DNA of 64,000 nucleotides from Pseudomonas sp. Choline-02u-1 (lineage in GTDB: Bacteria; Pseudomonadota; Gammaproteobacteria; Pseudomonadales; Pseudomonadaceae). The stretch lies in the NCBI RefSeq assembly GCF_002836515.1, contig NZ_PJBC01000001.1:62001-126000 (forward strand), given 5' to 3'. The notes beneath the pieces were generated by a model. The model had not been told where the DNA came from. It saw nothing but the letters and a program-made list of their open reading frames with translations, and searched no databases. Below are positions 13,698 through 40,065 of this stretch, piece by piece (within the stretch, counting starts at the first letter, position 1; the number at the start of each line of letters is the position of its first letter). The translations under genes were made by a program, and so were the position numbers.

Positions 13698-14798
13698 TTA
13701 TTTATCGGACTTGATACTGGTCCACACCCGCGTGCGCACCCGCTCCATTTTCTGCGACAACGGCTGCACCACATACAGGGTTTTCAGCGCTTCGCTGGTC
13801 GGGGTCAGGTTGGGGTTGTCGGTGATGTCCTTGTTGACCAGCGGCATCGAGTCCTTGTTGGCATTCGGATAGCCGAGGAAATCGCTGATCGGTGCGATCA
13901 CTTTCGGGTCGAGCAAGTGATTGAGGAACTCATGCGCCTCGGCGACGTTCTTCGCGCTCTTGGGAATGGCGAACGTGTCGAACCAGATCGGTGCGCCCTC
14001 CTTCGGCAAACGCCAGTCGACCACGACGCCGTTGCCCGCCTCTTTGGCGCGATTGCCGAACTGGTAGAAGCTGCCGGAATAACCGATCGCCACGCAGATG
14101 TCGCCGTTGGCAATGTCGGTCATGTACTTGGCCGAGTTGAAATAGGTCACGTACGGGCGAATCTTCATCATCAAGGCCTTGGCCTTTTCATAATCCGCCG
14201 GGTTCTGGCTGTTCGGATCGAGGCCCAGATAATGCAGGGCCAGCGGCAGGATTTCCGACGGCGAATCGAGCATCGCCACGCCACAGGCCTTGAGCTTTTC
14301 CATGTTCTGGGGCTTGAACACCAGATCCCAACTGTCCACGGGTGCGTTATCGCCCAATGCAGCCTTGACCTTGGCCGGGTTGAAGCCGATCAGCACGGTG
14401 CCGTACATGTATGGCATGCCGTACTGGTTGCCGGGGTCGTTGGCGTCGAGCAATTTGAGCAGGGCTGGATCCTGGTGCTGCCAGTTCGGCAGTTTCGACT
14501 TGTCGAGTTTCTGGAACACGCCGGCCTTGATCTGGGTTTCGAGGAACTGGTTGGACGGCACCACGAGGTCGTAACCGGAGTTGCCGGTGAGCAGTTTGGC
14601 TTCAAGGGATTCATTGGTGTCGAAGGTGTCCCAGGTCACTTTGATCTTGCTTTGCTCGGCGAAATCCTTGGGCACTGACGGCAGGATGTAATCCGCCCAG
14701 TTGTACACCCGCAGTTCGCGCTGCTCGGCCTGGACGGCGCTGGCCAGCAGCGTCAAGCCACACACGGTGGCGCCCAGAATACGTTTGATCGTGACCAT
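13698..14798 (-). CDS. Periplasmic polyamine-type binding protein (PotF-like)
   Basis: A 366-residue binding protein of the PotD/PotF group. It has a signal peptide (MVTIKRILGATVCGLTLLAS, cut near AVQA) followed by ELRVYNWADYILPS, the typical first strand, and YDLVVPSNQFLETQ, IGYSGSFYQFGNRA and WFDTFAIPKSAKN, which line the polyamine pocket in the family. I chose the ATG at 14798 because it starts the signal peptide. No permease or ATPase gene is adjacent, so it either serves a transporter encoded elsewhere or has a signalling role. A role for the nearby NCS1 cluster is possible but no shared operator was seen. Confidence 0.87.
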   Translation of the reverse strand: MVTIKRILGATVCGLTLLASAVQAEQRELRVYNWADYILPSVPKDFAEQSKIKVTWDTFDTNESLEAKLLTGNSGYDLVVPSNQFLETQIKAGVFQKLDKSKLPNWQHQDPALLKLLDANDPGNQYGMPYMYGTVLIGFNPAKVKAALGDNAPVDSWDLVFKPQNMEKLKACGVAMLDSPSEILPLALHYLGLDPNSQNPADYEKAKALMMKIRPYVTYFNSAKYMTDIANGDICVAIGYSGSFYQFGNRAKEAGNGVVVDWRLPKEGAPIWFDTFAIPKSAKNVAEAHEFLNHLLDPKVIAPISDFLGYPNANKDSMPLVNKDITDNPNLTPTSEALKTLYVVQPLSQKMERVRTRVWTSIKSDK

Positions 14799-15047: not shown

Positions 15048-16460
15048 TCAGTCGGTATAGCCGAGTCTGGCCGCCCTGCTCTGCTGCGCCTGACCGCGAG
15101 TTGCCAGGCAGTAATACAGCGGCACGGTGACCACCAGGCCAACCAGCCACGACAGGTCGGCGCCCTCGACCAGATTGGCGTACGGCCCGACGTACAGCGA
15201 GGTGTTGGCAAAGGGCAGCTGCACGATGATGCCGATGCAATAGGCAATGATTGCGTGCAGGTTGAAACGCCCGTAGATGCCGCCGTCGGCGCGGAAGATA
15301 GAGGTGATGTCGTAGTTGCCGCGCTTGATCAGGTAGAAGTCGATCAGGTTGATCGACGCCCACGGCACCAGCACCAGCAACAGCGCCAGAATCAACCCGA
15401 TGAATTCGGAAATGAAATCCGCCGAAGCGCCGAGGGCGACCACGCAGCATCCAGCCAGGATCACGCTCGACAGCACCACGCGCACCTTGATGCTGGGCGT
15501 CCACTGGCTGGCGAAAGTCTGGATCGAGGTGATGATCGACAGCACCGCGCCATACAGATTCAGCGCGTTGTGGCTGATGATGTTGAGCAGAAACAGCACC
15601 ATCAGAATCGGCCCCAGCCAACCGGTGGACTGTTTGACTGCCGCCATCGCTTCGGTGCCTTCCGGCGTCGCCAGCACGGCCACTGCGCCAAAGCTGAACG
15701 ACAGAATCGTGCCCAGCGTCGCGCCCAGATACGTCGCCCAAAAGGGTTTGGCGATGCCGATGTCTGCCGGCAGATAACGCGAGTAGTCGGAGACGTAGGG
15801 CGAGAAACTGATCTGCCAGATGATCCCCAGCGACACTGTCGCCAGCCAGCCGGAGACATTGAAGCTGCCGCGCGTCAGAAAGTCTGCCGGCAAGTCATGG
15901 GCGAAAATGTAGATGAACCCGGCGAGCAACGCGCCGCCCATCACCCAGGTGCCGATGCGGTTGAGCGTGTGAATGAAGTTGTAGCCGATCACGCCGATCG
16001 CTGTAGCGGCCAGCGCGCCGATCAGAATGCTCAGCGGCGCTGGCACCGAGGGCGCAATGCCGACAATGGATTTGCCGGCCAGCACGATGTTGGAAATGAA
16101 AAAACCGATGTAGATGATCGCCGCGAAGAACACGATCAGCAGCGCGCCATAACGGCCGAACTGGCCGCGACTCTGGACCATTTGCGGAATGCCCATGCGT
16201 GGGCCCTGGGCGGAGGCCAGCGCGATCACCACGCCGCCGATCATGTGCCCCAGCGCAATCGCCAGCAGCCCCCAGAACAGATTGAGATGGAACACCTGAA
16301 CCACCATGGCGCCGGTGACGATGGGCAGTGGCGCGATGTTGGTGCTGAACCAAAGAGTGAACAGATCGCGGGCCTTCCCGTGGCGTTCCGCGAGTGGGAC
16401 GTAATCGACCGTATGATTCTCGATCAACGGATCTTGCCGGGACATCTGGGACATATGCAT
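15048..16460 (-). CDS. NCS1-family permease (cytosine/purine/hydantoin type)
   Basis: A 470-residue inner-membrane symporter with about twelve helices. Family marks are LFTLWFSTNIAPLPIVTGA in the first helix, GMIPQ-like GPRMGIPQMVQSRGQFGRYG, FSPYVSDYSRYLP (the conserved mid-protein loop) and WASINLIDFYLI. NCS1 members import nucleobases, allantoin, hydantoins or thiamine with a proton or sodium. The upstream region carries a TGGTATTCCA box at 16545-16554, close in sequence to boxes in front of the flavin reductase and the monooxygenase/chemoreceptor pair. I infer that it imports the compound oxidised by those enzymes. ATG at 16460 or 16454 are both possible. Confidence 0.85.
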   Translation of the reverse strand: MHMSQMSRQDPLIENHTVDYVPLAERHGKARDLFTLWFSTNIAPLPIVTGAMVVQVFHLNLFWGLLAIALGHMIGGVVIALASAQGPRMGIPQMVQSRGQFGRYGALLIVFFAAIIYIGFFISNIVLAGKSIVGIAPSVPAPLSILIGALAATAIGVIGYNFIHTLNRIGTWVMGGALLAGFIYIFAHDLPADFLTRGSFNVSGWLATVSLGIIWQISFSPYVSDYSRYLPADIGIAKPFWATYLGATLGTILSFSFGAVAVLATPEGTEAMAAVKQSTGWLGPILMVLFLLNIISHNALNLYGAVLSIITSIQTFASQWTPSIKVRVVLSSVILAGCCVVALGASADFISEFIGLILALLLVLVPWASINLIDFYLIKRGNYDITSIFRADGGIYGRFNLHAIIAYCIGIIVQLPFANTSLYVGPYANLVEGADLSWLVGLVVTVPLYYCLATRGQAQQSRAARLGYTD

Positions 16461-16544
16461 GAACTCGAGTTTGTCTGTTTTTATCTTTGTATGAAGCCAA
16501 ACCGGGAGGACTCTTGGGTCGCCCCTCAGATGCAGACCATATTA

Positions 16545-16554
16545 TGGTATTCCA
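16545..16554. promoter_or_regulatory. Operator-like box A (TGGTATTCCA)
   Basis: TGGTATTCCA inside ATTATGGTATTCCAAAC, 85 bases upstream of the permease start. It differs by one base from the perfect palindrome TGGTATACCA at 19350. The form fits GntR-type operators, but the regulator is not in the window. Confidence 0.6.
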
Positions 16555-16717
16555 AACTTTGCACAAGCCTGATCCGCTGATTCTGTCCCTCTCTGATCCG
16601 CTATCCTCGCTGATCCCGCCCCTGCACGGCTAGCTGAAAGCCCCGTAAACATTGAGTTTCCGACGAAAGTCGCACGTTTATCGGTTCATCGGAAAAGCCC
16701 TTGCAAGATATGTATTA

Positions 16718-16727
16718 CGGTATACCA
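16718..16727. promoter_or_regulatory. Operator-like box B (CGGTATACCA)
   Basis: CGGTATACCA inside GTATTACGGTATACCATCAG, 50 bases upstream of the flavin reductase start. The flanking TATTA matches box C (GTATTATGGTATACC). Confidence 0.65.
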
Positions 16728-16777
16728 TCAGACCTACAAACCATAAAAACCGCGTCACACCACCCGAGGACCACCCA

Positions 16778-17263
16778 ATGATCGATGCTGCCATTTACAA
16801 ACAAGTCATGGGCTCGTTCCCGTCAGGCGTCACCGTTATCACCACGCTGGACGACGACGGTCAGATCGTCGGCCTGACCGCCAGCGCGTTCAGCTCGCTG
16901 TCGATGGACCCGGCGCTGGTGCTGTTCTGCCCCAACTACAGCTCCGACTCCTACCCCGTGCTGATCAAGAACAAGCGCTTTGCGATTCACCTGTTATCAA
17001 GCGTGCAGCAAAGCGAGGCCTATGCCTTCGCCCGCAAAGGCAAGGACAAGGCGCAGGGCATCGAGTGGACGTTGAGCGCACTGGGCAACCCGATCCTCGC
17101 CAATGCGACGGCGGTGATCGAGTGCGAGTTGTGGCGTGAATACGAAGGTGGCGACCACGCCATCATGGTCGGCGCGGTGAAGAACCTGATCGTCCCCGAG
17201 CAGGTCGCCGGGCCGCTGGTGTATTGCCACGGCAAGATGGGCGCGTTGCCGGTTGTGGCGTAA
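16778..17263 (+). CDS. Flavin reductase (RutF/HpaC-like)
   Basis: A 161-residue protein of the flavin reductase-like split-barrel family (PF01613). Typical marks are the start MIDAAIYKQVMGSFPSGVTV, GLTASAFSSLSMDPALVLFC (flavin-contacting strand) and GDHAIMVGAVKNL. It reduces FMN or FAD with NAD(P)H and supplies the reduced flavin to a monooxygenase partner. The luciferase-family oxygenase encoded 2.2 kb away under the same type of operator box is the natural partner. CGAGGA precedes the ATG at 16778. A strong hairpin with a T-run follows the gene. Confidence 0.87.
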   Translation: MIDAAIYKQVMGSFPSGVTVITTLDDDGQIVGLTASAFSSLSMDPALVLFCPNYSSDSYPVLIKNKRFAIHLLSSVQQSEAYAFARKGKDKAQGIEWTLSALGNPILANATAVIECELWREYEGGDHAIMVGAVKNLIVPEQVAGPLVYCHGKMGALPVVA

Positions 17264-17288
17264 GTCCATCGGCGCTCAGAGATCCAAT

Positions 17289-17322
17289 GTGGGAACGAGC
17301 TTGCTCGCTCCCACGTTTTTTT
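17289..17322 (+). terminator. REP-derived terminator after the flavin reductase
   Basis: GTGGGAACGAGC, TT, GCTCGCTCCCAC forms a 12-base stem with one mismatch, followed by GTTTTTTT. It is a compact REP-like palindrome acting as an intrinsic terminator. Confidence 0.75.
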
Positions 17323-17342
17323 GGATTGCTGGTGGTTACGGA

Positions 17343-19289
17343 CTACGTACGAAACCGGCTCACCAGCTGATTCAAGGTCTGCGACAAGGCCGTCAAATTC
17401 TGCGCATCCTGCCGAGTCGAATCCGCCAGGCTCGCCACCAACTGCGCATCACCATGAATCTGGCTGATGTGCCGATTGATGTCCTCTGCCACTTGATGCT
17501 GTTCCTCCGCCGCCGTGGCGATTTGCGTGTTCATGTCGCGGATCACGTCGACCGATTCACGGATCAATTCAAAACTCGCCCGCGCCTCGTTGATCGACAC
17601 CACGGTTTGCTGCGAGACCTCGAGGCTGGCGTGCATTTGCTTGCCCATCTGATGGGTGCGCCGCGCCAGATTACCCAGCAGTGCGTCAATCTCACCGGTT
17701 GAATCCGACGTGCGTTTGGCCAGCGCGCGAACTTCATCCGCGACCACGGCAAAGCCCCTGCCCTGTTCACCGGCGCGCGCGGCTTCGATGGCGGCGTTGA
17801 GCGCGAGCAGATTGGTTTGCTCGGCAATCGAGCGGATCGTGCCGAGAATCGACTGAATGTCGTTACTGTCCTGCTCCAATTGCTGCATCGACTCGGCGCT
17901 GTGGCCGATCTCCTGACTCAAGCGCCCGACGTTGCTCACCGCCGCGTCGATCTGTTGCTGCCCGGTGTGTGCCTGGCGCTGACCGTTGTCTGCCGAGTCG
18001 GCGGCCTGACTGCACGAGCGCGCAACCTCATTGGAGGTGGCGACCATTTCGTGGAACGCGGTCGACACCATGTCCACCGCCTCACGCTGACGCGAAGCGA
18101 CGTCGGCCATTTCCGCCGAGACTTCGGTGGCGCTGCCGGAGCTGCTGTGAATCTGCCCCGCTGCCTGGCCGATGCGCTGAATCAACGTGCGAATTGCTTC
18201 GAGAAACTGGTTGAACCAGCCGGCCAGTTGCGCGGTTTCGTCCTGCCCGCGCACCTCCAGTCGCGCAGTGAGATCGCCCTCGCCTTGTGCGATGCCTTCG
18301 AGACCACTCGCCACGCCGCGAATCGGCTTGACCATCAGCCCGGCGAACCAAGCACCAGCCATCGCAAACAACAGTGCGCAAACCACAGCGATCGCGCCGA
18401 TCAGCCAGGTCAAACGCGTCGCCCCAGCCATCACTTCACTGGCTTTTACCAAGCCCACAAAGCGCCAGCCCAATGCCTGCGACGGCCAGACCAGCGCCAT
18501 GTAATCCTCGCCGGCCAACTGCACCTCAACCAGCCCTTTGCCCGCCTCGGCCAGTTGCTGATAACCATCGCCGAGATCGCTGAGTTTCTTGAAGTTGTGC
18601 GCCGGATCGCTAGGGTCCACCAGCACGGTGTTATTGGCTTCCATCAGCATCAGATAACCGCTCTCGCCGAGGCGGATCTGCTTGACCAGATCGGTCAATT
18701 GCTTGAGCGACACATCGATGTTGACCACACCGGCATTGCTCCCCAACTGGTTGTTGAAGCTGCGCACGGTGCTCACCAGCACCACGTCATCCGCCACCCA
18801 GTAATAGGCCTCGGTGCGCAGGGTTTGGCCAGGATTGGCCATCGCGGTTTTGTACCAGGGGCGGGTGCGCGGATCGTAGTTGGCCAACTTCGCATCGCCC
18901 GGCCAGAACAGATAACCGCCCTGCTCGGTGCCGACAGACAGATAGGTATAGGCCGGGTGCGCCTTGGCCAGGCCGTCGAACAGCTTGAACAGCTGTTGAT
19001 CCTGCGGCCCCATCGGCACTTGCGCGGCCTCGCTGCTCAGGTAGCGTTTGAGGCTGGCGTCGATGCTTTGCAATTGCGGATGCTCGGCCAGATAAGCAAC
19101 GTTTTGGCTGATGCCTTCGAAAAACAGCTGCATCGCGTTTTCCACCTGACGCACTTCGCGCCCGGTGCTGTCGGTAAAGGTGTCGCGCGCGCCCTCGCGG
19201 ACATTGAGGATGATCAGCGCTGCCACCAGTAACACCGGCAGGCTGGCGATTACCGCAAACGCCAAAGTCAGTTTTTGTTTTATGTTCAT
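17343..19289 (-). CDS. Methyl-accepting chemotaxis protein with dCache sensor
   Basis: A 648-residue chemoreceptor. A helix at about 8-29 is followed by a periplasmic double-Cache domain to about 275, with [18 protein letters not shown] and [15 protein letters not shown] in the membrane-distal pocket. A second helix, a HAMP domain ([20 protein letters not shown]) and a long signalling coil with the tip [20 protein letters not shown] follow. It lacks a C-terminal CheR-tether pentapeptide. The distal pocket resembles amino acid or purine dCache sensors but the full amino acid motif is not met. It is divergent from the monooxygenase gene across operator box C, so it probably senses the compound taken up and oxidised by this cluster. 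Confidence 0.88.
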
Positions 19290-19349
19290 TGCTTGCGCCT
19301 TCCTTGTTCGAAGTGTCGGTCAGAAATATTTTGCGGATATTCCGTATTA

Positions 19350-19359
19350 TGGTATACCA
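19350..19359. promoter_or_regulatory. Operator-like box C (TGGTATACCA)
   Basis: A perfect palindrome TGGTATACCA within GTATTATGGTATACCAATAT, midway between the divergent chemoreceptor and monooxygenase genes. It is the best-formed of the three boxes in this cluster. Confidence 0.7.
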
Positions 19360-19492
19360 ATATTCAATCAACCGAACAGCCGTCCTCGAAGGCGCGCTTG
19401 AATGGTGAGAAGACTCGCGAGCGCACAGCGCTCACGTCAGTTCGACAGGCCCGCACACGACCGGCCAATTACAAAAGACTCGAGGTAGCGTC

Positions 19493-20536
19493 ATGAAATT
19501 TTCCCTGTTCGTACACATGGAACGCTGGGACGAAAGCGTCAGCCACCGCCAACTGTTCGAAGACCTGACCGAACTGACCCTGATGGCCGAGGCTGGCGGT
19601 TTCAGCACCGTGTGGATCGGCGAACACCACGCCATGGAATACACCATTTCCCCCAGCCCGATGCCGCTGCTGGCCTACCTCGCAGCGAAAACCACGACCA
19701 TCCACCTCGGCGCCGGCACCATCATCGCGCCGTTCTGGCACCCGCTGCGTGTCGCCGGCGAATGCGCCCTGCTCGACGTGATCAGCAACGGCCGCATGGA
19801 AGTCGGTCTCGCGCGCGGCGCCTATCAGGTTGAATTCGACCGCATGGCCGGCGGCATGCCCGCCTCCAGCGGCGGCCAGGCCCTGCGCGAAATGGTCCCG
19901 GTAGTCCGCGCCCTGTGGCAAGGCGACTACGCCCACGACGGCGACATCTGGAAATTTCCCACCTCCACCAGCGTGCCGAAACCGATCCAGAAACCCAACC
20001 CGCCGATGTGGATCGCTGCCCGCGACCCGGATTCGCACAACTTCGCCGTGGCCAACGGCTGCAACGTGATGGTCACGCCATTGATGAAGGGCGACGAAGA
20101 AGTCCTCGACCTGAAGAACAAATTCCAGACCGCACTGGACAACAACCCAGACGTACCGCGCCCGCAATTGATGGTGCTGCGCCACACCCACGTTCACACC
20201 GCCGACGACCCGGACGGCTGGCAAGTCGGCGCCAAAGCTATCTCACGTTTCTACCGCACGTTCGATGCGTGGTTTGGCAACAAGCAAACGCCGGTCAATG
20301 GCTTCCTCGCGCCGAGCCCGGAAGAGAAATTTGCCGGGCGTCCGGAGTTTGAGCTGGAGAGCCTGCACAAGACCGCGATGATCGGCACGCCGGAAGAGAT
20401 CATTCCGCGGATCAAGTACTACCAGGAACTGGGCGTGGATGAGTTCAGTTTCTGGTGCGACAACAGCTTGCCGCATGAAGAGAAGAAGAAATCGCTGGAG
20501 TTGTTTATCAAGCATGTGGTGCCGGCGTTTCGCTAG
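19493..20536 (+). CDS. Luciferase-like flavin-dependent monooxygenase
   Basis: A 347-residue LLM-class enzyme (PF00296). The N terminus MKFSLFVHMERWDES leads into EAGGFSTVWIGEHHAMEYTISPSP and IHLGAGTIIAPFWHPLRVAGECALLDVIS, the flavin-binding TIM barrel; ISNGRMEVGLARGAY is the usual phosphate-contact segment. Such enzymes oxidise substrates with reduced FMN supplied by a separate reductase, here probably the RutF-like protein. CGAGGTAG precedes the ATG. The gene is divergent from the dCache receptor and is followed by a strong terminator. RutA (uracil ring opening) is a distant relative; similarity is not enough to name the substrate. Confidence 0.87.
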   Translation: MKFSLFVHMERWDESVSHRQLFEDLTELTLMAEAGGFSTVWIGEHHAMEYTISPSPMPLLAYLAAKTTTIHLGAGTIIAPFWHPLRVAGECALLDVISNGRMEVGLARGAYQVEFDRMAGGMPASSGGQALREMVPVVRALWQGDYAHDGDIWKFPTSTSVPKPIQKPNPPMWIAARDPDSHNFAVANGCNVMVTPLMKGDEEVLDLKNKFQTALDNNPDVPRPQLMVLRHTHVHTADDPDGWQVGAKAISRFYRTFDAWFGNKQTPVNGFLAPSPEEKFAGRPEFELESLHKTAMIGTPEEIIPRIKYYQELGVDEFSFWCDNSLPHEEKKKSLELFIKHVVPAFR

Positions 20537-20755: not shown

Positions 20756-21574
20756 ATGAGCACCTTCAAGACCCAAGACGGCACCGAGATCTATTACAAG
20801 GACTGGGGCAGCGGCGAGCCCGTGCTGTTCAGCCACGGCTGGCCGCTGGATGCCGACATGTGGGAATACCAGATGGAATACCTGAGCAGTCGCGGCTACC
20901 GCACCATCGCCTTCGACCGCCGTGGTTTCGGCCGCTCCGATCAACCATGGACCGGCTACGACTACGACACCTTTGCCGATGACATCGCAGGTTTGATCAA
21001 CCATCTGGACCTGCGCGACGTGACCCTGGTCGGTTTTTCCATGGGTGGCGGCGACGTCAGCCGCTACATCGCCCGCCACGGCAGCGAGCGTGTTGCCGGC
21101 CTGGTATTGCTCGGTGCGGTCACGCCGCTGTTCGGCAAGAAAGCCGACTTCGCCGACGGCGTCGACAAATCGGTATTCGACGGCATCAAGGCTGGCCTGC
21201 TGAAGGATCGTGCGCAGTTCATCGCCGACTTCAACACGCCGTTCTACGGCATCAATCAGGGCCAGAAAATCTCTGACGGCGTGCTCACGCAAACCCTGAA
21301 CATCGCGCTGATGGCATCGCTCAAGGGCACCGTCGATTGCGTGACCGCGTTCTCGGAAACCGACTTCCGCCCGGACATGGCCAAGATCGACGTGCCGACC
21401 CTGGTGATCCATGGCGACGGCGACCAGATCGTGCCCTTCGAAACCACCGGCAAGAAGGCGGCCGCGCAAATCAAAGGCGCCGAGTTGAAGGTTTACGCCG
21501 GCGCGCCGCACGGGTTTGCCGTCACCCATGCGCAGGCGCTGAATGAGGATCTGCTGGCGTTCCTCAAGCGCTGA
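20756..21574 (+). CDS. Alpha/beta hydrolase, PFE-type arylesterase / perhydrolase
   Basis: Hydrolyses small aryl and alkyl esters and, like the P. fluorescens PFE enzyme, may show perhydrolase activity. The 272 residues follow the PFE pattern almost throughout: FSHGWPLDADMWEYQMEYLS, FDRRGFGRSDQPWTG, the nucleophile elbow GFSMGGG (Ser95), the acid in LVIHGDGDQIVP (about Asp222) and His in APHGFAVTH. An AAGGAG box precedes the ATG. It stands alone between terminators. It is next to the NCS1/monooxygenase cluster, but the terminators and lack of an operator box argue against co-regulation. Confidence 0.92.
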   Translation: MSTFKTQDGTEIYYKDWGSGEPVLFSHGWPLDADMWEYQMEYLSSRGYRTIAFDRRGFGRSDQPWTGYDYDTFADDIAGLINHLDLRDVTLVGFSMGGGDVSRYIARHGSERVAGLVLLGAVTPLFGKKADFADGVDKSVFDGIKAGLLKDRAQFIADFNTPFYGINQGQKISDGVLTQTLNIALMASLKGTVDCVTAFSETDFRPDMAKIDVPTLVIHGDGDQIVPFETTGKKAAAQIKGAELKVYAGAPHGFAVTHAQALNEDLLAFLKR

Positions 21575-22328: not shown

Positions 22329-23213
22329 TCAGGCTTGCTCGCGCACCACGCCACGCTCCTCAAGCAAACGCACAAACATGCTCAGACTGCGCGACACCGT
22401 ACCCCGGCGCCACACCAGCCAGGTGGTCAGATAGCGGAAGTCCGCGGTCAGCGGCCAGACGCTGACCGTCGCGCTGCCGGGCATGCTCTGCAGCATTTTG
22501 CGCGGCATCAGTGCCAAGCCGGCACCGGCGCTGACGCAGGCGAGCATGCCGTGGTAGGACTCCATTTCGAAAATCTTGCCCGGTACGGCGGCGTCGCTGC
22601 CAAACCATTTTTCGAAATGATGACGGTAGGAACAGTTGGATCGGAAAGCGTAGATATTTTCACCGTTCACATCCGCCGCGCGCTCGACCGGTGAATGATT
22701 GAGCGGCGCGATGATGACCATTTCCTCTTCGAAGGCCGGCACGCCTTCCAGCGCCGGATGCAGCACCGGGCCGTCGACAAATGCCGCAGCCAGACGCCCG
22801 GACAGCACGCCGTCGATCATCGTCCCCGATGGCCCGGTGGAAAGATCGAGGTCGACCTTCGGATGCTGCTGGTTGTACGCCGCCAGCAGTTCGGGAATGC
22901 GGACAGCTGCGGTACTTTCCAACGAGCCCAACGGGAACGCGCCCTGGGGCTCCTCACCCGCCACAGTGGCTCGGGCTTCCTGCACCAGATCGAGAATGCG
23001 CCGCGTGTACTCGAGAAAGCTCCACCCGGCCGGCGACAGACGCAGACGACTTTTCTCACGGATAAACAGATCGACGCCGAGGTCCTGCTCCAGCTGTTTG
23101 ATCCGCGTTGTCAGGTTCGACGGCACGCGATGGATCTGCGTGGCGGCAGCGCTGATGCTGCCGTGTTCGGCCACAGCCTTGAAGATTTCCAGTTGCACCA
23201 GATCCACAGTCAT
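22329..23213 (-). CDS. ptrR: LysR-family regulator, PtrR-like
   Basis: A 294-residue LysR protein. The helix-turn-helix is at about 4-62 ([30 protein letters not shown]) and an effector-binding domain follows. It is divergent from a Sad-type aldehyde dehydrogenase gene, the arrangement of ptrR-sad in enterobacteria, where PtrR controls putrescine and succinate semialdehyde use. I place the start at the ATG at 23213 because it gives the normal short N-terminal arm [11 protein letters not shown]. Confidence 0.85.
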
Positions 23214-23310
23214 TCTCCAATCGTGAAGGAAACGATCTTTATTATTCAGTTTCAAGAAAACAAACGCCACCCTACTCTAGGCCCATCCGACGAACCTGCA
23301 GGACAAAGTC

Positions 23311-39865: not shown

Positions 39866-40051
39866 ATCATTCCACCATCCCAGCGTTGTTCAAACGAGCC
39901 CACTGCAGAATCCCTCGCGTTACAAAAAGTGTTTCAACCGCGAAACAACAACTCTTGAACGCCCTTCGATCTGGCTAACCGCCTGTCTGACATTTCGACA
40001 GTCATACATACATTTTCGCGCGCTGCGGATAGCATGCGCGCCGCCTTTCCG

Positions 40052-40065
40052 ATTGGTATACCAAT
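40052..40065. promoter_or_regulatory. Perfect 14-bp palindrome ATTGGTATACCAAT
   Basis: ATTGGTATACCAAT lies 63 bases upstream of a GTG-start gene of unknown function. Its ten-base core is identical to box C of the NCS1/monooxygenase cluster. Whether one regulator binds both cannot be told from sequence. Confidence 0.6.

Follow-up and report, generated by a model that had tools for sequence, protein, structure and literature searches.

A conserved GntR-type operator links uptake, chemoreceptor and flavin-dependent oxygenase genes of Pseudomonas in a probable trigonelline-type regulon

In a stretch of 64,000 nucleotides from Pseudomonas sp. Choline-02u-1 (contig NZ_PJBC01000001.1, here C3, positions 62,001 to 126,000; this whole stretch is the window), a permease, a flavin reductase, a chemoreceptor and a luciferase-family oxygenase are encoded by neighbouring genes that are fronted by one type of short palindrome. 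What brings these proteins under a common switch, and which compound do they serve? A first-pass annotation had proposed one operator type for all four genes, a joint function on a nitrogen heterocycle and an undescribed catabolic route. The operator marks a real, well-conserved regulon. The window genes probably form its right-hand half, and the whole would be governed by a GntR-type protein and encode a divergent trigonelline-type pathway; trigonelline (N-methylnicotinate) is a betaine of plants.

The four genes had been named correctly in kind, as Pfam matches confirm. The NCS1-family permease (15048-16460, minus strand; PF02133, E 1.6e-42), the proposed substrate importer, shares 52-58% identity with the permeases of four Acinetobacter clusters. 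The flavin reductase (16778-17263, plus strand, 161 residues; PF01613, E 5.2e-43), a putative supplier of reduced flavin mononucleotide (FMNH2), corresponds to a TgnA-like domain that lacks a Nudix domain at its C-terminus, and is 75% identical to a second copy in an upstream operon. The chemoreceptor, a methyl-accepting chemotaxis protein (MCP) with a dCache_1 sensor (17343-19289, minus strand; PF02743, PF00672 and PF00015), is followed by the luciferase-like flavin-dependent oxygenase (19493-20536, plus strand; PF00296, E 1.2e-54). The latter, a candidate ring-cleaving counterpart of TgnB, is 50% identical to the oxygenase of an Acinetobacter baylyi cluster and 79% identical to that of Arthrobacter dokdonellae.

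The three boxes are present where they had been placed, all on the plus strand and all of the GGTATnCC type. ATTATGGTATTCCA (16541-16554) precedes the permease gene and is of the transporter type, with the extended form ACCATATTATGGTATTCCAA; ATTACGGTATACCA (16714-16727) precedes the flavin reductase gene; and ATTATGGTATACCA (19346-19359) is the single box of the divergent MCP/oxygenase gap, 71 bp before the MCP gene and about 146 bp before the oxygenase gene. GGTATnCCA gives 7 strand matches in the window against 0.54 expected, a number reached by none of 100 shuffles; this count includes two palindromic sites on both strands and one match (20874) inside coding sequence. With up to two mismatches, ATTAnGGTATnCCA is matched 5 times against 1.14 expected. 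The match at 20874, GGTATTCCA, was rejected as a promoter site, lying within the coding sequence of an alpha/beta hydrolase (20756-21574). A further palindrome, ATTGGTATACCAAT (40049-40063, with a differently flanked core at 40054), precedes a small open reading frame (ORF). It lacks the TTA flank and was therefore left out of the regulon; another regulator probably acts there.

In the whole genome (5,965,550 bases) the exact pattern TTAnGGTATnCCA occurs six times, against twice for its reversed control, and all six sites lie in 31 kb of the window's contig (C3:50441-81359). Three are inside the window and three at 4.4 to 11.6 kb to its left, and every one precedes a unit of the uptake and oxygenase gene set. 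By contrast, the 8-bp core GGTATACC taken alone is not special, with 15 palindromic sites against 23 for the reversed control, so that the specificity is carried by the TTA flank. The genome-wide search that had been suggested as a check finds the flanked box more often than its reversed control.

The left half of the regulon was read from C3:42001-62000, the stretch directly left of the window. The box at C3:50441 heads an operon of seven genes, which encode in order a DUF1185/AA_synth protein, an alpha/beta hydrolase, an aldehyde dehydrogenase (ALDH), the second flavin reductase, a CMD-family protein, an FCD/GntR regulator and a Nudix hydrolase; PF06684 (DUF1185), PF00561 (hydrolase) and PF00171 (ALDH) are matched at the operon start (C3:50495-53429). 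The box at C3:56203 sits between the genes for a DUF1330 protein and RibBA, the second DHBP synthase in the genome, and that at C3:57552 precedes an ABC transporter made up of a PotD-type binding protein, two permeases and an ATPase. The two transporter units have a common extended box form, AtCATATTATGGTATTCCAAacTTT. The regulator gene (C3:54508-55272) lies 6.7 kb left of the window, within the box-headed operon, and combines a winged helix (PF00392, E 1.4e-17) with an FCD domain (PF07729, E 1.2e-24); a GntR-type regulator outside the window had been anticipated.

Conservation was followed in 149 same-genus genomes, of which 84 are oxygenase-positive at 80% identity or more. This set omits G044 and G119, which have a 43% paralogue only, and includes G046 and G080, whose gene is partial or broken. 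At least three exact box matches occur in 84/84 oxygenase-positive and 1/65 oxygenase-negative genomes, counted as strand matches in which a full palindrome can appear twice; at least three separate sites are present in each of the 24 genomes whose stretches were read. The lone negative, G076, is a fragmented draft in which the contig ends just past the reductase gene. The Fisher value for this co-occurrence, 6e-42, overstates independence, the genomes being related. All 84 genomes carry the GntR gene, as does one other (G058), where only a 98-residue piece of DUF1185 is matched beside it. The consensus of 50 distinct sites, gTATTAtGGTATACCAtcAtAC, is close to a 22-bp palindrome. Together with the genome-wide search, these counts bear out the idea of one operator type common to transporter, receptor, reductase and oxygenase.

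Box positions were then compared gene by gene in 24 genomes (23 of the 84 positives, spread over the identity range, and G076), counting boxes within 320 bp upstream; not every unit was fetched in each genome. A box precedes the first gene of the unit for DUF1185 (23/23), NCS1 (16/16), reductase (20/21), ABC binding protein (18/19), DUF1330 (19/21), RibBA (17/19) and MCP (3/3), and none lies upstream of the eight internal operon genes (0/18 to 0/24 each). As the NCS1/reductase and DUF1330/RibBA gaps are common to divergent neighbours, one box may serve two genes. The claim that four promoters in two divergent pairs are covered is less sure, given the single box of the MCP/oxygenase gap and the oxygenase gene's having a box in only 7/23 cases; elsewhere no box is found there and the gene comes, in most cases, after that of the reductase. 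Units that lie scattered, as in several genomes, yet keep their boxes (e.g., G019 and G057); in G019 the oxygenase gene is at 2.68 Mb and the DUF1185 gene at 3.92 Mb. Boxes, gene set, synteny, conservation and co-occurrence of the regulator are directly observed.

Outside the genus, rhizobia, roseobacters, Enterobacterales and Acinetobacter carry the same gene order on plasmids. These clusters comprise the best 80 of 555 relatives matching an Acinetobacter-led alignment, towards which clade they lean, and plasmid records (eleven regions among 385-467 matched records). With 9 or 10 of 10 bases, TGGTATACCA stands upstream of DUF1185 in 84/87 clusters (shuffles: mean 0.54, maximum 3), the exceptions being L009, L124 and L134; the count omits a second Sinorhizobium meliloti record (L013) and stretches with less than 200 bp upstream, and with all included is 86/89. 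It is rarely found upstream of the hydrolase (3/88), reductase (2/88) or ABC binding protein (1/24) and never upstream of the oxygenase (0/90), ALDH (0/90) or NCS1 (0/28), so that outside the genus the box marks the cluster head only. The GntR gene is divergent and within 700 bp of DUF1185 in 75/85 clusters; in 6 it closely precedes DUF1185 in the same orientation. Compared with 50 of these GntR proteins, the regulator has a median identity of 59% in its DNA-binding part and of 29% in its effector (FCD) part. A conserved box together with a conserved DNA-binding part would fit one operator kept by one regulator lineage.

Two relatives stand somewhat aside. The Arthrobacter dokdonellae plasmid pDCT5 (L009) carries, with its 79%-identical oxygenase, two DUF1185 genes, a succinate-semialdehyde dehydrogenase (SSADH), a riboflavin kinase and a NUDIX gene. 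A separate, related cluster (L176, G048:C2:335001-355000) encodes an oxygenase and a DUF1185 protein of 44 and 53% identity and a fused reductase, has no regulon box and, by eye from its ORFs, includes ALDHs, a hydrolase and a glycine-betaine-type ABC transporter. Among the matches listed, its kind of oxygenase occurs in 4 of the 149 same-genus genomes (G044, G048, G119 and G129), and the cluster is possibly a route for another pyridine betaine.

The likeness to trigonelline degradation is seen part by part. That pathway (TgnA-F) is said to have been solved in Acinetobacter baylyi by Perchat in 2018. The cluster of A. baylyi DSM 14961 (L064), whose genes would correspond to the named Tgn proteins by matching family and order, encodes a DUF1330 protein (46% identity), GntR (35%), DUF1185 (55%), hydrolase (36%), reductase (37%), oxygenase (50%), ALDH (52%), NCS1 (52%) and CMD protein (75%), and a further ALDH, read as SSADH. 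Both halves of a Tgn-type two-component oxygenase are thus present in the regulon (PF00296 and PF01613), as are an ALDH, an alpha/beta hydrolase and a TgnF-type DUF1185 protein. The genome's only SSADH to exceed the family cut-off (771 bits) is encoded on contig C34, and the regulon ALDH scores 414 of 646; the system is for this reason called Tgn-like rather than Tgn proper. The window's own alpha/beta hydrolase, 21-30% identical to the cluster hydrolases, was rejected as the pathway hydrolase. With its core gene set matching that of A. baylyi, the route is not borne out as undescribed and is most likely a divergent trigonelline-type pathway. Published work describes ring opening of trigonelline by TgnA/TgnB (PMC8269262), TgnB as trigonelline monooxygenase among luciferase-domain proteins (PMC11354265), TgnF, homologous to a DUF1185-family protein, as stimulating the SSADH TgnE (PMC7913881), and a proposed role of DUF1185 in amino-acid metabolism (PMC2954203). 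In a table of a 2021 review, nodD is entered for trigonelline, apparently in the regulator column (PMC9151330).

From these similarities a working scheme can be drawn. The FCD/GntR regulator, probably a repressor, would bind a palindrome close to GTATTATGGTATACCATAATAC and answer to an effector through its FCD part. The ABC transporter and the NCS1 permease would import the substrate, the two small flavin reductases would make FMNH2, and the luciferase-like oxygenase would use it in opening the ring. The ALDH may then oxidize the ring-opening product, and the alpha/beta hydrolase, perhaps with the CMD (decarboxylase-family) protein, may release amine, formate, CO2 and succinate semialdehyde, in a reaction order taken over from the Tgn model; an SSADH encoded elsewhere would finish the last of these, with DUF1185 in place of TgnF. 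RibBA and the Nudix protein probably raise the supply of flavin mononucleotide (FMN), and the chemoreceptor would steer cells to the source in strains having it. The idea that transporter, receptor, reductase and oxygenase act together, probably on a nitrogen heterocycle, is supported.

In other taxa 85/88 reductase ORFs carry a full-length extra C-terminal domain, which is somewhat shorter in two and missing in one. Pfam fails to recognize this domain as NUDIX, even at E 0.05, and the assignment rests on profile-profile and fold comparison: the domain and the regulon's free Nudix protein are homologs (hhalign 99.6%, E 4.7e-24). The predicted structure of the A. baylyi reductase (predicted local distance difference test, pLDDT, 80.9; predicted template modelling score 0.59) aligns along both domains with 3rh7 (Z 24.8), at a root-mean-square deviation (rmsd) of 16.5 over 265 residues, so that the domain arrangement is not reproduced, and its C-terminal part matches the NUDIX structure 3cng (Z 16.3, rmsd 2.3, 130 aligned). 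3rh7 is SMa0793, the reductase of the S. meliloti pSymA cluster (675 bits, all 312 residues). The catalytic Nudix box Gx5Ex7RExxEExG is intact in 24/24 free proteins of the genus and in 0/85 fused domains. The fusion suggests that reductase and Nudix domain work together; a guess is that the free protein makes FMN from flavin adenine dinucleotide (FAD), and that the dead fused domain senses substrate.

The chemoreceptor adjoins the oxygenase in at least 17 of the 84 oxygenase-positive genomes, and the box in the gap is exact in 16/17 and has one mismatch in the remaining gap, where the oxygenase gene is broken. Being found there only in part of the genomes, it is an added member of the regulon and not a core one. 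The nearest solved domain to its sensor is 6mni (E 2.4e-106, similar over 260 residues), which we take to be the proline-binding PscC domain of Pseudomonas syringae, from a receptor for proline and gamma-aminobutyrate (GABA). Perception of GABA and proline in P. syringae is treated in PMC9452764, and in PMC10104139 several amine-type dCache domains do not bind trigonelline. The Chimaeribacter arupi stretch encodes DUF1330, GntR, DUF1185, hydrolase, reductase, oxygenase and ALDH proteins, a 'cytosine permease', a chemoreceptor and an annotated NUDIX protein without match to the regulon Nudix at E 1e-8. Its chemoreceptor, only 29% identical to that of the window, was rejected as evidence for the same receptor.

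Could the shared box be due to chance, or to several unrelated GntR regulators? The 15 copies of the bare core, the differently flanked copy at 40054 and the one or two flanked matches seen in 11/65 oxygenase-negative genomes would agree with this, but the confinement of all six flanked boxes to the gene set, and their conservation with these genes in 84 same-genus genomes and beyond, make it barely conceivable, and the co-occurrence counts led to its rejection. A Rut-like route for pyrimidines or another nucleobase is also highly improbable. Rut-type systems use NCS1-type permease, luciferase-type oxygenase, flavin reductase and alpha/beta hydrolase classes, and the first three had been recognized here. 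The likeness in classes holds but is superficial: the reductase, loosely labelled RutF-like, is a flavin reductase that scores 65.5 bits against a RutF cut-off of 254.75, RutD reaches 95.4 against 238.5, RutA is missing from the best 25 of 30 models for the oxygenase, and no RutB- or RutC-like gene is recognized in the regulon, whereas the Tgn-type set fits part by part. By Z score, the predicted oxygenase structure (pLDDT 86.8) resembles RslO1 (35.3) and bacterial luciferase (33.6) more than RutA (27.9). The Rut-type route was rejected on the RutF and RutD cut-offs. A weightier alternative, itself unlikely, keeps the regulon and its enzyme logic and changes the compound to pyridine, nicotinate, N-methylnicotinamide or another N-methylpyridinium, with specificity shifted jointly. 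Among 52 rows, the oxygenases of the genus group with that of A. dokdonellae in a clade separate from the Tgn-type one (100/99 support), and 22 positions are fixed differently between the two clades (24 sequences compared). DUF1185, ALDH and GntR also stand apart, and the regulator's effector domain has a median identity of only 29%. On the other hand, the permease is 51-58% identical to Tgn-type permeases, nearly the inter-genus range of 56-65% (two pairs at 77 and 80%), the CMD protein shares 75% identity with its A. baylyi counterpart (44% in one cluster), and the ABC binding protein is 55-64% identical to those of Tgn-type clusters. Furthermore, among the matches listed for the 149 genomes at E 1e-90 there is no oxygenase of 50-79% identity, so that the regulon set fills that place. 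A plasmid for pyridine (PyrA), sought as an outside yardstick, was not among the 60 plasmid records listed of 385. With some parts apart and others closer, trigonelline is the likely substrate, by inference, and another pyridine the lesser candidate.

Several points weigh against a trigonelline pathway as the function of the regulon. The oxygenase, just 50% identical to that of A. baylyi, forms its own clade with Arthrobacter, and identities of 36% for the hydrolase and 29% for the effector domain mean that the ligand could differ. Within the regulon no SSADH exceeds the family cut-off. The Arthrobacter cluster has no box before DUF1185 and a permease of just 27% identity. The chemoreceptor is absent beside the oxygenase in most genomes, and its nearest solved relative is a proline/GABA receptor. 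The A. baylyi genome compared is that of the type strain DSM 14961, not ADP1, the non-genus sample leans towards the Acinetobacter-led clade, and the same-genus genomes are non-independent samples. A wider picture is more doubtful: a complete programme that seeks, imports and breaks open trigonelline-like plant betaines under one deeply conserved GntR operator. Such a programme would have recruited a chemoreceptor and made the supply of FMN inducible through the second RibBA and a free, intact Nudix protein converting FAD to FMN; in other bacteria the fused Nudix domain would be dead and possibly sense substrate.

Other features of the window include a cobalamin riboswitch (877-1070; Rfam RF00174, 109 bits), downstream of which lies a gene that, judged by eye, encodes a binding protein for an ABC transporter of the cobalamin type. 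A PotF-like binding protein (13698-14798) stays below its family cut-off, and a LysR gene (22329-23270) is above that of PtrR, the regulator of putrescine utilization (478.7 of 400 bits).

The chemistry of ring opening is probably already known. What looks new is the operator, the conserved regulator, the enlarged regulon with chemoreceptor and flavin supply, and the Nudix protein, free and intact here and fused and degenerate elsewhere. No trigonelline operator is described in the accessible portions of the open-access literature linking trigonelline and GntR, and no description of the operator and the enlarged membership was found in open-access literature, which lacks the 2018 study. If one short operator tags this pathway in taxa from Acinetobacter to rhizobia and roseobacters, the regulon could be recognized in many genomes and its regulator would be a testable one for a small-molecule switch, while a chemoreceptor, the DUF1185 family and a Nudix domain would become linked through one chemistry.

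Compared with known systems, the regulon resembles the Rut pyrimidine pathway in enzyme classes only, reaching no family cut-off. PscC-type dCache chemoreceptors have a strongly similar sensor domain, whereas the receptor here is under the regulon box and adjoins the oxygenase. The A. baylyi Tgn cluster likewise combines a luciferase-type oxygenase, flavin reductase, ALDH, alpha/beta hydrolase, DUF1185, NCS1, DUF1330, CMD and GntR, with 9 of 10 operator-core bases in the gap before DUF1185. However, it is one contiguous cluster with a second, SSADH-like ALDH, a porin-like gene and one fused reductase, while here there are separate box-headed units and two short reductases, to which RibBA, an intact Nudix protein, a PotD-type ABC transporter and the chemoreceptor are added. 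The S. meliloti pSymA cluster (L010) has the same five enzymes, a GntR gene, 9 of 10 operator-core bases and a PotD-type ABC transporter 48-61% identical to that of the regulon; its reductase is fused, and NCS1, RibBA and MCP are unmatched in its 25-kb stretch. It sits between nodL/noeB and nifT, and homologous clusters are present on many rhizobial plasmids. In 1990 genes for trigonelline catabolism (trc) were reportedly located on the symbiotic plasmid of S. meliloti, and the link to trigonelline matters in that this Tgn-type cluster lies between nodulation and nitrogen-fixation genes.

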